43,201 nucleotides of DNA from an uncultured Verrucomicrobia subdivision 3 bacterium (GTDB lineage: Bacteria; Verrucomicrobiota; Verrucomicrobiia; Limisphaerales; UBA11358), in NCBI GenBank assembly GCA_903827955.1, contig CAIKKJ010000033.1, positions 1-43,201 of the forward strand, given 5' to 3'. Of this stretch, positions 22,650 to 36,348 are shown in pieces. Below the pieces are notes generated by a model. It worked only from the letters and a program-made list of their open reading frames with translations, was not told the DNA's origin and did no database searches. A program made the position numbers and the translations under genes. Each line of letters starts with the position of its first letter. The first letter of the stretch is position 1.

Positions 22650-22670
22650 TTGGGAGAAGGTTGAAGGTTA

Positions 22671-22737
22671 AATTATGAAGGATGAAAAACTAAAAAACCG
22701 GATTATTTCATAATTCAGCCTTCATCTTTTATCCTTG
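22671..22737. repeat. Small inverted-repeat spacer element
   Basis: The spacer between the acetyltransferase and zinc-ribbon genes holds AATTATGAA (22671-22679) and its inverse TTCATAATT (22707-22715), plus AAGGAT/ATCCTT further out. It is AT-rich and noncoding. It may be a degenerate intergenic repeat. Confidence 0.35.
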
Positions 22738-22742
22738 AATGT

Positions 22743-23333
22743 TCACCCGCCCACACCCGCGTATTCCTCGTCGGTCTTCAGATTCAGCCCCATCAAAATA
22801 TAATCGTGCGTGATGGCCTGCATATCCTTCACATAATCTTCAAGGTGGATCAATTTGCAGAAGCCGAGCATGGCGAACATCTTCATCGCGGCCGCCTGTT
22901 CGCCGATGAATTCCGCCTCGACTTTTTCCAGGCTGGCGCGGCGCGCGATGTCCGTTGTGACTTCAATCAACGTCGTCGCCAGCCCGCGGCCGCGATAATC
23001 CGGATGCACTAGCACGCTGACGCGGCCGATGTGGCGTTTCCAGCCGCCGAGTTGCTGATGCAGGGTGGCCACGCCGACAATTTTTCCGCCGATGAGTGCG
23101 ACGATGGGTAGATTGCGGCCAAAATCAATTTTTTTGCACCAGTCGCGGATGACCTTGATGTCGGTCACGCGGTGCTTGATGAACATTCGTTCCTGCTCGG
23201 GAATGCCGAGAAATAATTTATGAAAATCCTTCTCGTCGGATTTTTCCAGCGGCCGCAAGATGGCGCGCTTGTTTTCCTTGAGCTTGACGTGTTTCGGAAA
23301 TTTCTGGAGTTCCAGTTCAATGCTGAATGACAT
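22743..23333 (-). CDS. GNAT-family N-acetyltransferase
   Basis: A 196-residue protein with the GNAT fold. Acetyl-CoA-binding motif A is VSVLVHPDYRGRGLATTLIE (about 105-124), with the R/Q-x-x-G-x-A type pyrophosphate loop RGRGLA. The preceding strand has KIVGVATLHQ and the C-terminal half AAMKMFAMLGF matches motif B. The substrate cannot be told from sequence. It is flanked by spacers of 58 and 93 bp, so is probably transcribed alone or with its minus-strand neighbours. Confidence 0.9.
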   Translation of the reverse strand: MSFSIELELQKFPKHVKLKENKRAILRPLEKSDEKDFHKLFLGIPEQERMFIKHRVTDIKVIRDWCKKIDFGRNLPIVALIGGKIVGVATLHQQLGGWKRHIGRVSVLVHPDYRGRGLATTLIEVTTDIARRASLEKVEAEFIGEQAAAMKMFAMLGFCKLIHLEDYVKDMQAITHDYILMGLNLKTDEEYAGVGG

Positions 23334-34810: not shown

Positions 34811-35329
34811 ATGCAAAACAAAACCGTGCTCGCGTTTCTTGACGATGTTTACGAAGACCTCGAACTCTGGTATCCCAAACTGCGGCTGGAGGAAGCAGGT
34901 TATTCGCTGAAATGCGCCGCGCCGGAAATCAAAACCTACGCTGGCAAACACGGCTATCCCGCCACCTCGGATTTGCTTTTGAAGGATGCGCACTCCAAAG
35001 ATTTCTGCGGCCTGCTTGTGCCCGGCGGTTTCATGCCCGACAAATTGCGCCGCGATGCCAAGGTGCTTTCCCTCACGCGCGAATTTTTTGAGCAGGGCAA
35101 GCTCGTCGCCTTCATCTGCCACGGCGGGTGGATTCCCATCTCCGCGAAAATTCTCAAAGGCAAGCGCGTGACCGGCTCACTCGGCATCAAGGACGATCTG
35201 GAAAACGCCGGCGGCATTTGGGTGAACGAACCGGTGGTCGTGGACGGTAATTTAATATCCAGCCGCACGCCCAAAGATTGCGCCCCTTTCGGTAAGGCGA
35301 TGGTGAAATTTCTCGATCAAGAAAAATGA
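34811..35329 (+). CDS. DJ-1/PfpI-family protein
   Basis: A 172-residue protein of the class I glutamine amidotransferase-like superfamily. It has VLAFLDDVYEDLELWYP at the start with the Glu that pairs with the nucleophile, LLVPGGFMPDKLR, and AFICHGGW with the nucleophilic Cys followed by His, as in PfpI, YajL and Hsp31-type members. The family includes proteases, glyoxalases and deglycases, so the precise activity is open. The first in-frame ATG with family homology is 34811. Confidence 0.88.
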   Translation: MQNKTVLAFLDDVYEDLELWYPKLRLEEAGYSLKCAAPEIKTYAGKHGYPATSDLLLKDAHSKDFCGLLVPGGFMPDKLRRDAKVLSLTREFFEQGKLVAFICHGGWIPISAKILKGKRVTGSLGIKDDLENAGGIWVNEPVVVDGNLISSRTPKDCAPFGKAMVKFLDQEK

Positions 35330-35332
35330 ATG

Positions 35333-35414
35333 AGGAAGGCAGGAAAACAGGAATGGGGATTAAAACTAGCATCAGAAACAGCCGGCAGACCTATTTGTCT
35401 TTTCCTGCCTTCCT
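35333..35414. repeat. 15-bp inverted repeat upstream of the GxxExxY gene
   Basis: AGGAAGGCAGGAAAA at 35333-35347 is the exact reverse complement of 35400-35414. The spacer of 52 bp is noncoding. It belongs with the direct repeats around the next gene. Confidence 0.7.
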
Positions 35415-35416
35415 GC

Positions 35417-35851
35417 CTTCCTGCTTTCCTTATTGAAATTCAGAACATGAATAAATTAGCACATGAAGAATTGACCGGGCGCATCATTGCTTGTGCGATT
35501 GAGGTTCACAAAGCACTTGGGCCAGGCTTTCTGGAATCCATTTACGAAGCAGCCATGCTGGTTGAGTTGAAACGCGTCGGATTGAAAGTGGAATCGCAAA
35601 AATCGCTACCTATTTTCTATCGTGAAACTTTGGTGGGTGAACACCGTCTTGATTTGCTGGTGGAGGATAAAATTATCGTCGAGTTAAAAGCCATTTCCGA
35701 ACTGGAAGACATTCACTTTGCAATTGTCCGTTCGTATTTGAAAGCCGTCGCCTTGGAACACGGTTTGTTGCTTAACTTCGCCACGATGCCGCTGACGGTC
35801 AAACGCGTGATCTGCCAGCCTCATTCCTGACTTCCTGCTTTCCTTATTGAA
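35417..35851. repeat. 21-bp direct repeats flanking the GxxExxY gene
   Basis: The same 21-bp sequence (CTTCCTGCTTTCC then TTATTGAA) is present at 35417-35437 and 35831-35851, on either side of the gene at 35447-35830. The copies are identical. Confidence 0.85.
35447..35830 (+). CDS. GxxExxY-family protein (PD-(D/E)XK-like)
   Basis: A 127-residue protein. GPGFLESIYEAAM (about 25-37) is the GxxExxY signature. A nuclease-like core is visible: HRLDLLVEDKIIVELKAI, where the Asp and the Glu-x-Lys fit a PD-(D/E)XK fold. Whether it is an active nuclease is unknown; such proteins are widespread and multi-copy in environmental bacteria. The ATG at 35447 starts family homology; the frame opens earlier at 35330 through repeat DNA that is not coding. 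It lies between 21-bp direct repeats. Confidence 0.88.
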   Translation: MNKLAHEELTGRIIACAIEVHKALGPGFLESIYEAAMLVELKRVGLKVESQKSLPIFYRETLVGEHRLDLLVEDKIIVELKAISELEDIHFAIVRSYLKAVALEHGLLLNFATMPLTVKRVICQPHS

Positions 35852-35881
35852 TTTTCCCCCGTCTGTTCTTAAACTTTTCCC

Positions 35882-36274
35882 ATGCAAGATTCGCAACTCG
35901 CACAGTATATTCCGATTCTGTTTCTGCTCGCTGCCGCCGTTGGCTTCGCGGGCGGGACGCTGCTGCTCTCCGTGCTGCTCGGCAAATACGCCAAGAGTGA
36001 CAAGGCCAAGGACGCCGCCTACGAATGTGGCAAGGATCCCATTGGCAGCAACACCGGGCGCTTCTCGGTGCAATTCTATCTGGTTGCGATGCTCTTCATC
36101 CTGTTCGATATCGAGGTGGTGTTCATGTATCCATGGGCCGTGGTTTATCGCGATATGCTTGCTGAACACGCCACGCGTAATCTTGTGCTCGGCTCGATGA
36201 TTTCGTTCCTCGGCATTTTGTTTCTCGGCTACATCTACGCCGTGAAGAAAAAAGCCCTCGACTGGAAAACCTGA
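35882..36274 (+). CDS. nuoA: NADH-quinone oxidoreductase subunit A
   Basis: A 130-residue membrane protein with three helices (about 10-30, 64-84 and 98-119). The NuoA/ND3 signature is KDAAYECGKDPIGSNTGRFSVQFYLVAMLFILFDIEVVF; the Cys in YECG lies in the loop that moves with quinone binding. NuoA couples the peripheral and membrane arms of complex I. No other nuo gene follows: the next gene is a phosphohexomutase. Confidence 0.95.
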   Translation: MQDSQLAQYIPILFLLAAAVGFAGGTLLLSVLLGKYAKSDKAKDAAYECGKDPIGSNTGRFSVQFYLVAMLFILFDIEVVFMYPWAVVYRDMLAEHATRNLVLGSMISFLGILFLGYIYAVKKKALDWKT

Positions 36275-36280
36275 TTCTCC

Positions 36281-36339
36281 GCCACAGAGTCACAGAGACT
36301 CCGAGAAAGCAAATCTCTGTGCCTCTGTGTCTCTGTGGC
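36281..36339. repeat. Imperfect palindrome of CACAGAG units
   Basis: Arms 36281-36297 (GCCACAGAGTCACAGAG) and 36323-36339 pair at 16 of 17 positions around a 25-nt loop, between nuoA and the mutase gene. No T-run follows on the plus strand. It looks like a dispersed intergenic repeat. Confidence 0.7.
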
Positions 36340-36348
36340 AAATAATTT

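Follow-up and report, generated by a model that had tools for sequence, protein, structure and literature searches.

The window analyzed here is a stretch of 43,201 nucleotides from an uncultured Verrucomicrobia subdivision 3 bacterium, and the locus under study lies between a DJ-1-like gene and nuoA. A previous reading of this DNA, made from the sequence alone, had placed a GxxExxY gene there, and both the position and the identity of the gene held (TIGR04256, E value of 7.9e-40; PF13366 PDDEXK_3, E value of 4.1e-38). The scores of 130.8 bits (cutoff, 22) and 135.8 bits (cutoff, 35) for the GxxExxY and PDDEXK_3 profiles (TIGR04256 and PF13366) exceed the curated cutoffs. The gene (35447 to 35830, plus strand) encodes 127 amino acids that model as a Cas4/RecB-like PD-(D/E)XK nuclease. 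A longer open reading frame of 166 amino acids, starting at 35330, runs through the palindrome described below; homology begins at its residue 47, and the start is therefore probably the ATG at 35447 and not 35330.

The main structure at the locus is an imperfect inverted pair of arms, all on the plus strand as given here, that encloses the gene. The left outer arm (35321 to 35358) holds the DJ-1 stop codon (TGA at 35327 to 35329), and the GxxExxY gene has its stop codon inside the right outer arm (35819 to 35856). The outer end of this right arm overlaps a ATTGAATTTT-like stretch that precedes nuoA in empty sites as well. Together with the left arm, an inner right arm (35400 to 35437) makes a complete palindrome upstream of the gene, and the order is thus left arm, right arm, GxxExxY gene, right arm. 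The sequence-only reading had reported 21-bp direct repeats bracketing the gene and a 15-bp inverted repeat. Both are real: the 21-mer CTTCCTGCTTTCCTTATTGAA occurs at 35417 to 35437 and at 35831 to 35851 (plus strand; a 20-mer of it has 0 mismatches at both places), and the inverted repeat, 35333 to 35347 with 35400 to 35414, belongs to a 25-nt pair at 84%. The direct repeats do bracket the gene, but that reading missed the outer inverted pair. They exist because the right arm is present twice, as inner and outer arm, and we rejected att sites or target-site duplications as an explanation for them. Other copies of the element have the entire palindrome duplicated (L026, L047, and L076) or show no duplication (L001 and L067).

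The best inverted repeat between the upstream and downstream flanks of the gene, which we used as a score throughout, reached 20.5 in the window, above all 15,000 shuffled scores over 75 genes (maximum, 18.0). When mismatched flank pairs from other GxxExxY genes serve as the control, in which shared arm families are frequent, the score is less extreme (P = 0.015). The hairpin from 35325 to 35440 has a folding z of -3.8. We rejected an Rfam RNA family at the locus, as the three matches were miRNA-precursor hairpins far below the gathering scores, and between 34700 and 36500 no rRNA match was found up to an E value of 0.1.

The sequence-only reading had also suggested a nuclease-like fold, which the PF13366 match, a structure model with a pLDDT of 94.6, and structural matches support. 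The best PDB match of the model is SSO0001 (4ic1), a Cas4 protein (Foldseek E value of 1.5e-3; VIA-align Z of 10.0, rmsd of 3.4 over 102 residues), followed in VIA-align by R.SwaI (Z of 8.2) and then by others of the wider nuclease fold. Foldseek gave nothing at an E value of ≤0.001, and a sequence search for a solved structure found none, with one match at an E value of 0.89. Among 75 GxxExxY genes, the E and D residues are conserved in 75/75 each, and in the ExK motif the E is conserved in 70/75 and the K in 74/75; an N-F pair is conserved as well. The window protein carries all of E, D, and ExK, whose catalytic role we presume from the nuclease superfamily. A QxxxY-like motif is less constant (Q in 66/75, Y in 61/75), and the window protein has Ile in place of the Gln. 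Searches for a known defense family (PADLOC) and for phage carriage (PHROGs families and 50,697 phage records) each gave 0 matches; 8 of 72,556 plasmid records had a match, all of them predicted to be nonmobilizable.

The genome from which the window comes has four PF13366 matches, and all four lie between inverted arms. The sequence-only reading had proposed looking for the window repeats around the other GxxExxY genes. They do not occur around the other three; the palindrome family differs from gene to gene, a more unusual situation than that reading expected. The four families are CCACAGAGGCACAGAG.. (L001), AGGAAGGCAGGAAAACAGGAA (the window), AACAGGAGCAAACAGAGG.. (L003), and AGACAGAATTAACAAAATT.. 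(L004), and they share a design of about three copies of an 8- to 10-nt unit per arm. Gene-less copies of the window family occur elsewhere in the same genome. Within the window, a gene-less palindrome of the CCACAGAG family, as found around the GxxExxY gene at L001, lies right after nuoA (36274 to 36346); in relatives the palindrome at this site is missing or of a different family. Another gene-less palindrome (22652 to 22748) has arms that by eye resemble those around four-helix-bundle genes. In a sample of the genome, a plain palindrome scan gave no excess, with 54 palindromes (25 of them masked N blocks) versus 44 in a Markov control that was built from the same stretches, N blocks included. 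A tandem-unit scan gave 4 versus 1 in one shuffle, and one of the 4 is the window element. The gene-less copies that we describe were chosen by unit structure, motif search, or site comparison, partly by eye. We also considered the genome's own Y1 transposases as obvious partners and rejected them; the three Y1_Tnp matches lie elsewhere and are flanked, by eye, by other repeats. One of the loci (L270) has its Y1_Tnp gene in long inverted repeats with a CAAGCTCCGTCAGGAGCG palindrome, a REPtron-like arrangement.

Is the enclosure of GxxExxY genes by inverted arms a general property? GxxExxY genes are present in 50 of 59 related genomes. We scored 75 genes, mostly the highest scoring of 149 summed matches in the 59 genomes. 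Compared with dinucleotide shuffles, 72/75 had significant arms at P ≤ 0.05 and 65/75 at P ≤ 0.005; the three without significant arms are L048, L057, and the second gene of L063. A score of 14.5 was reached by 66/75 GxxExxY genes versus 4/261 neighboring open reading frames (Fisher test, 9e-55), the latter called by crude open reading frame finding in draft genomes. In a further control, the upstream flank of one gene was paired with the downstream flank of a gene in another genome; 63/75 genes scored above its 95th percentile and 28/75 above its 99th. This control is harsh because unrelated copies share arm families. Beyond the relatives, we took the 80 best matches to one protein, a set that is not random, of which 79 could be scored (L218 was too short). 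Arms were significant at 71/79 loci (P ≤ 0.05) against shuffles and at 46/79 (P < 0.05) against mismatched pairs. The titles of these genomes name Cyanobacteria, Planctomycetes, Chloroflexi, Proteobacteria, Acidobacteria, Bacteroidetes, and others, and many of the arms read like AACCGCCAAGACGCCAAGGACGCCAAG or AACCACAGAGACACAGAGGACACAGAG; one locus of this wide set (L160) is apparently the same place as one of the relatives set (L045). The gene-in-palindrome arrangement recurs in many bacterial phyla and may represent an undescribed class of mobile element.

The same arrangement is found around another gene. Four-helix-bundle (S23) genes (PF05635) occur in 50/59 of the same related genomes. We used a single match per genome for 30 genomes and added the copy in the window's own genome, 31 in total (L152 was too short), and found significant arms, often of the GAGTTGAGAGTTGAGAG type, around 25/30 tested genes. 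The sole four-helix-bundle gene of the window's own genome (L010) also lies between such arms, with a score of 26.5. Proteins of this family are known from 23S rRNA intervening sequences (PMC4990558), and 23S_rRNA_IVP genes have been noted near nuclease genes in cas loci (PMC3936711).

Evidence for movement comes from shared host sites, for which we compared the best 30 loci each at nuoA, gltD, and sufC. At nuoA, the gene sits in its palindrome in 4 of the 30 (G000, G003, G017, and G025), the adjoining upstream gene of the G025 element being different from that of the other occupied loci. One more locus has a decayed remnant fused to DJ-1 (G035), 10 are empty, with DJ-1 and nuoA joined by 46 to 81 nt, 6 have a longer gap without the gene, and 9 have neither an adjacent DJ-1 nor the gene. 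A fifth genome, G018, which was read separately from the 30 loci, is also occupied. By nuoA, two of the three closest genomes (G028 and G030) are empty and more distant ones are occupied. The empty site of L116 may be a scar, because it keeps a short stretch like an arm end. In the remnant of G035 (L109), a deletion apparently joined mid-DJ-1 to mid-GxxExxY in one open frame, either a genuine event or an error of the assembly. The palindrome that follows nuoA is of the CACAGAG type in the window; other genomes have other families there or none. The sequence-only reading had viewed the arrangement as a small mobile or recombining cassette and had proposed comparing empty sites. The empty nuoA sites and the gene-less palindromes elsewhere in the window's own genome support this view; the opposite pattern, with the gene at the same place everywhere, no empty sites, and no repeats, did not occur.

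Other sites gave the same picture. Between gltB and gltD, 5 of the best 30 loci have the gene and 23 have only a short gap (printed stretches of 43 to 95 nt, which include a few coding bases). One is decayed, with the arms kept and the gene mostly deleted (L250), and one has another insert that looks palindrome-like by eye (L267). This site is used by two GxxExxY types (38 to 45% identity) with different arms, and more generally one site can carry, in different species, unrelated GxxExxY genes (33 to 45% identity) with unrelated palindromes. At the L024 site, G017 is occupied and G003 is empty, and the adjoining stretches are 88 to 94% identical. A junction with overlapping stop and start codons at this locus is intact in G003 and G028; in G017 and G018 it is split by gene-less palindromes that differ between the two genomes. 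The L022 site has no element (38 to 68 nt) in G013, G028, G007, G000, G027, and G058, a gene-less palindrome in G030 that is closely similar to the gene-filled one in G003, and another family in G017, so that gene-filled and gene-less palindromes are both observed at one site. Between sufB and sufC, 4 of the best 30 loci are filled with GxxExxY, and by eye at least 12, including the window's own genome, have gene-less palindromes. Several of the gene-less copies (e.g., L332, L338, and L341) have CAGAT units versus CGGAT in the filled ones, with spacers that are similar by eye, which looks like a matched change or replacement. No clear target-site duplication was found at the junctions compared; one junction of the L024 locus has a possible duplication of at most 3 nt, and other sites are too diverged. 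We also looked for a homing signature at shared sites. Gene identity was not clearly above flank identity (difference of +5 to -23 points); at most of these sites the gene DNA is no more similar than its flanks, and thus no recent homing between those pairs was seen.

The sufB-sufC junction is rich in small inserts with unlabeled open reading frames, some of them PIN-like by eye (L351, L343, L339, L344, and L348); the one PIN-like frame tested had no Pfam match. At L348, an open reading frame for a ParE-family toxin and a small partner frame lie beside the left arm. At L350 (sufB-sufC of G026), arms spanning 1700 to 2264 enclose a loop open reading frame of about 165 amino acids with a GIY-YIG-like pattern by eye; a Pfam search at 0.01 gave no match, and NCBIfam gave none that was credible. 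Another type of nuclease occupying a loop would be informative.

Arms of the window family are dispersed in the genomes that carry the element. The arm motif has 10, 13, 16, 29, 2, and 11 matches in the genomes that carry the window element or its remnant, and of 30 other genomes of the genus, 28 have 0 to 6, one has 9, and one has 21. The excess in genomes with the element or remnant is significant (P = 0.0008, or 0.005 after subtracting two matches each). The genome with 21 matches (G004) has no PF13366 match, and therefore copies can exist without the gene. At L080 (17344 to 17501), a palindrome of one family lies, by eye, inside the loop of another.

Arm sequence and protein sequence are coupled. 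Over 2,036 pairs from different sites and different genomes, protein identity correlated with arm similarity (r = 0.455), and 500 permutations reached at most 0.081 (66 genes with arms). Arms and gene moving together would fit this, and so would a protein that recognizes its arms; the correlation does not tell the two apart. The elements also lie in preferred places. Among the 59 of 66 relatives loci where both neighbors were called (with strands from the same crude calls), 42 were in operon sense, 0 antisense, 10 divergent, and 7 convergent; the wide set had 32 sense, 4 antisense, 20 divergent, and 5 convergent, and the S23 set had 15 sense versus 0 antisense. Left arms lay a median of 1 nt from the upstream stop codon in the relatives; the corresponding medians were 7 nt for the wide set and -2 nt for the S23 set. 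Selection for tolerated places may suffice to explain both the sense bias and the proximity to stop codons.

At the level of sequence, the genome comparison showed that identical host sites either carry the unit or lack it, that there are many palindrome families, and that arms and protein travel or evolve together. It likewise showed same-family gene-less palindromes to be dispersed and the units to lie beside stop codons and in operon sense. Mobility of gene and palindrome as a unit is well supported by these sequence comparisons; we infer that the nuclease is what drives it. On balance we favor a small selfish element, composed of a nuclease gene and its palindrome, in which the product is a candidate nuclease recognizing that palindrome. 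The unit is an imperfect palindrome with arms of about three 8- to 10-nt units and the gene for a predicted Cas4/RecB-like PD-(D/E)XK nuclease in the loop. We hypothesize that the nuclease recognizes its own family's arm units, of which there are six, inversely oriented and spaced by about one helical turn, and that it cuts or processes the arm DNA, probably as an extruded hairpin. Repair might then copy the palindrome, with or without the gene, to a new place or might put the gene into a gene-less palindrome. Insertion would be tolerated inside operons because the arm carries or abuts a stop codon, and within an operon the gene would be transcribed together with its neighbors. A bolder version, which we regard as tentative and would not yet bet on, is that GxxExxY nucleases drive cross-phylum homing elements that target palindromes of 8- to 10-nt units, each nuclease being matched to its own unit and copied into cut gene-less loops. 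The gene-less palindromes would be dependants, the S23 palindromes would form a second branch, and rRNA intervening sequences would be members of this second branch that inserted into rRNA stems.

Could the GxxExxY gene instead be a passenger in MITE-like palindromes that are moved by another enzyme, as one of several captured loop genes and maybe with a role in defense? The many arms without the gene in G004 fit this, as do the sufB-sufC loops with other open reading frames (e.g., L350 and L351), the ParE-type toxin by the left arm in L348, and the four-helix-bundle genes in the same arrangement. We nevertheless consider it rather unlikely, as arm sequence tracks GxxExxY sequence, the inverted repeats around the genome's own three Y1_Tnp matches are by eye unlike these arms, and PADLOC had no match for a defense role. 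GxxExxY also fills 8 of 12 long-loop palindromes at loci fetched mainly by neighboring genes, a count that is weak because the sites were chosen for having the gene in some genome.

Less probable still is an RNA-level element like the 23S rRNA intervening sequences, whose transcript would form a long stem with the open reading frame in its loop, be processed by RNase III, and spread by reverse transcription or RNA-linked recombination. The strong sense bias, the strong RNA hairpins, and the presence here, in comparable palindromes, of the four-helix-bundle proteins of rRNA intervening sequences (PMC4990558) would agree with it, but many copies have diverged arms with imperfect pairing, and the DNA-nuclease fold suits DNA better. 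The palindromes could also be host regulatory hairpins, terminators or attenuators, next to an ordinary vertically inherited gene. Such hairpins are common near gene ends, the nuoA copy is present in several species of the genus, and gene and flanks are similarly diverged; the empty sites in relatives contradict this explanation, and the different families at one site and the dispersed copies also speak against it, leaving it very improbable.

How does the proposed selfish element relate to known systems? A REPtron is a RAYT gene flanked by REP palindromes, and RAYT proteins are HUH Y1 transposases. As in REPtrons, where gene-less REP palindromes are scattered over the genome (PMC3733652), a single gene here is enclosed by inverted palindromic repeats that also occur dispersed without it. 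The element described here differs from REPtrons in that the gene (PF13366) encodes a protein with a PD-(D/E)XK nuclease fold and not an HUH Y1 transposase, the arms consist of tandem units, the gene is in the loop, and there are several families per genome. The 23S rRNA intervening sequences share with it a stem made from inverted repeats and a small open reading frame in the loop; their stem is formed by terminal inverted repeats, and mobility has been suspected (PMC4990558). Here, the element lies outside rRNA (between DJ-1 and nuoA), beside the stop codons of protein genes, and the open reading frame is mostly a nuclease. MITEs such as ERIC, RUP, and Correia are short palindromic elements dispersed between genes. 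The dispersed short palindromes described here resemble them (on such elements, see PMC10969869); the difference is that copies here have an internal gene, and we identified no terminal repeats that belong to a known transposase. The predicted fold, the E, D, and ExK residues, and the QxxxY-like motif of most family members are shared with Cas4 and RecB nucleases (SSO0001, AdnA, and lambda exonuclease). Cas4 has an iron-sulfur part; the minimal protein of 127 amino acids does not, and it has DJ-1 and nuoA as neighbors here rather than CRISPR or helicase genes. The proposed logic, a nuclease gene that sits in its own putative target, is that of homing endonucleases, but no intron or intein was seen, the putative target is a repeated palindrome, and there is no excess of gene over flank similarity.

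In the openly licensed PMC literature, we found no description of GxxExxY genes in palindromes, including in PMC8934634, PMC4853749, PMC2700814, and PMC11270868. The same literature likewise gave no stated function of GxxExxY or four-helix-bundle genes. The element lacks a defining feature of REPtrons (a Y1 transposase) and one of rRNA intervening sequences (location in rRNA). Mobile tandem-unit palindromes would give a context to the common GxxExxY and four-helix-bundle genes and would account for the CACAGAG- or CGCCAAG-type repeats met here in several phyla. The old question of the origin of rRNA intervening sequences becomes testable. If the nuclease recognizes the arm units, the large number of natural pairs of protein and unit would be a ready-made specificity code for a nuclease of 127 amino acids.

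Two further observations concern the palindromes themselves. In G013, a word taken from the gene-less palindrome that flanks L024 recurs head to tail every 21 nt (C81, 6 to 118, and C1, 23841 to 23931), which suggests tandem amplification of palindrome units. In G018 (L062, 792 to 1500) and G017 (L054, 2007 to 2600), two palindromes of the window family flank the DJ-1 gene itself.
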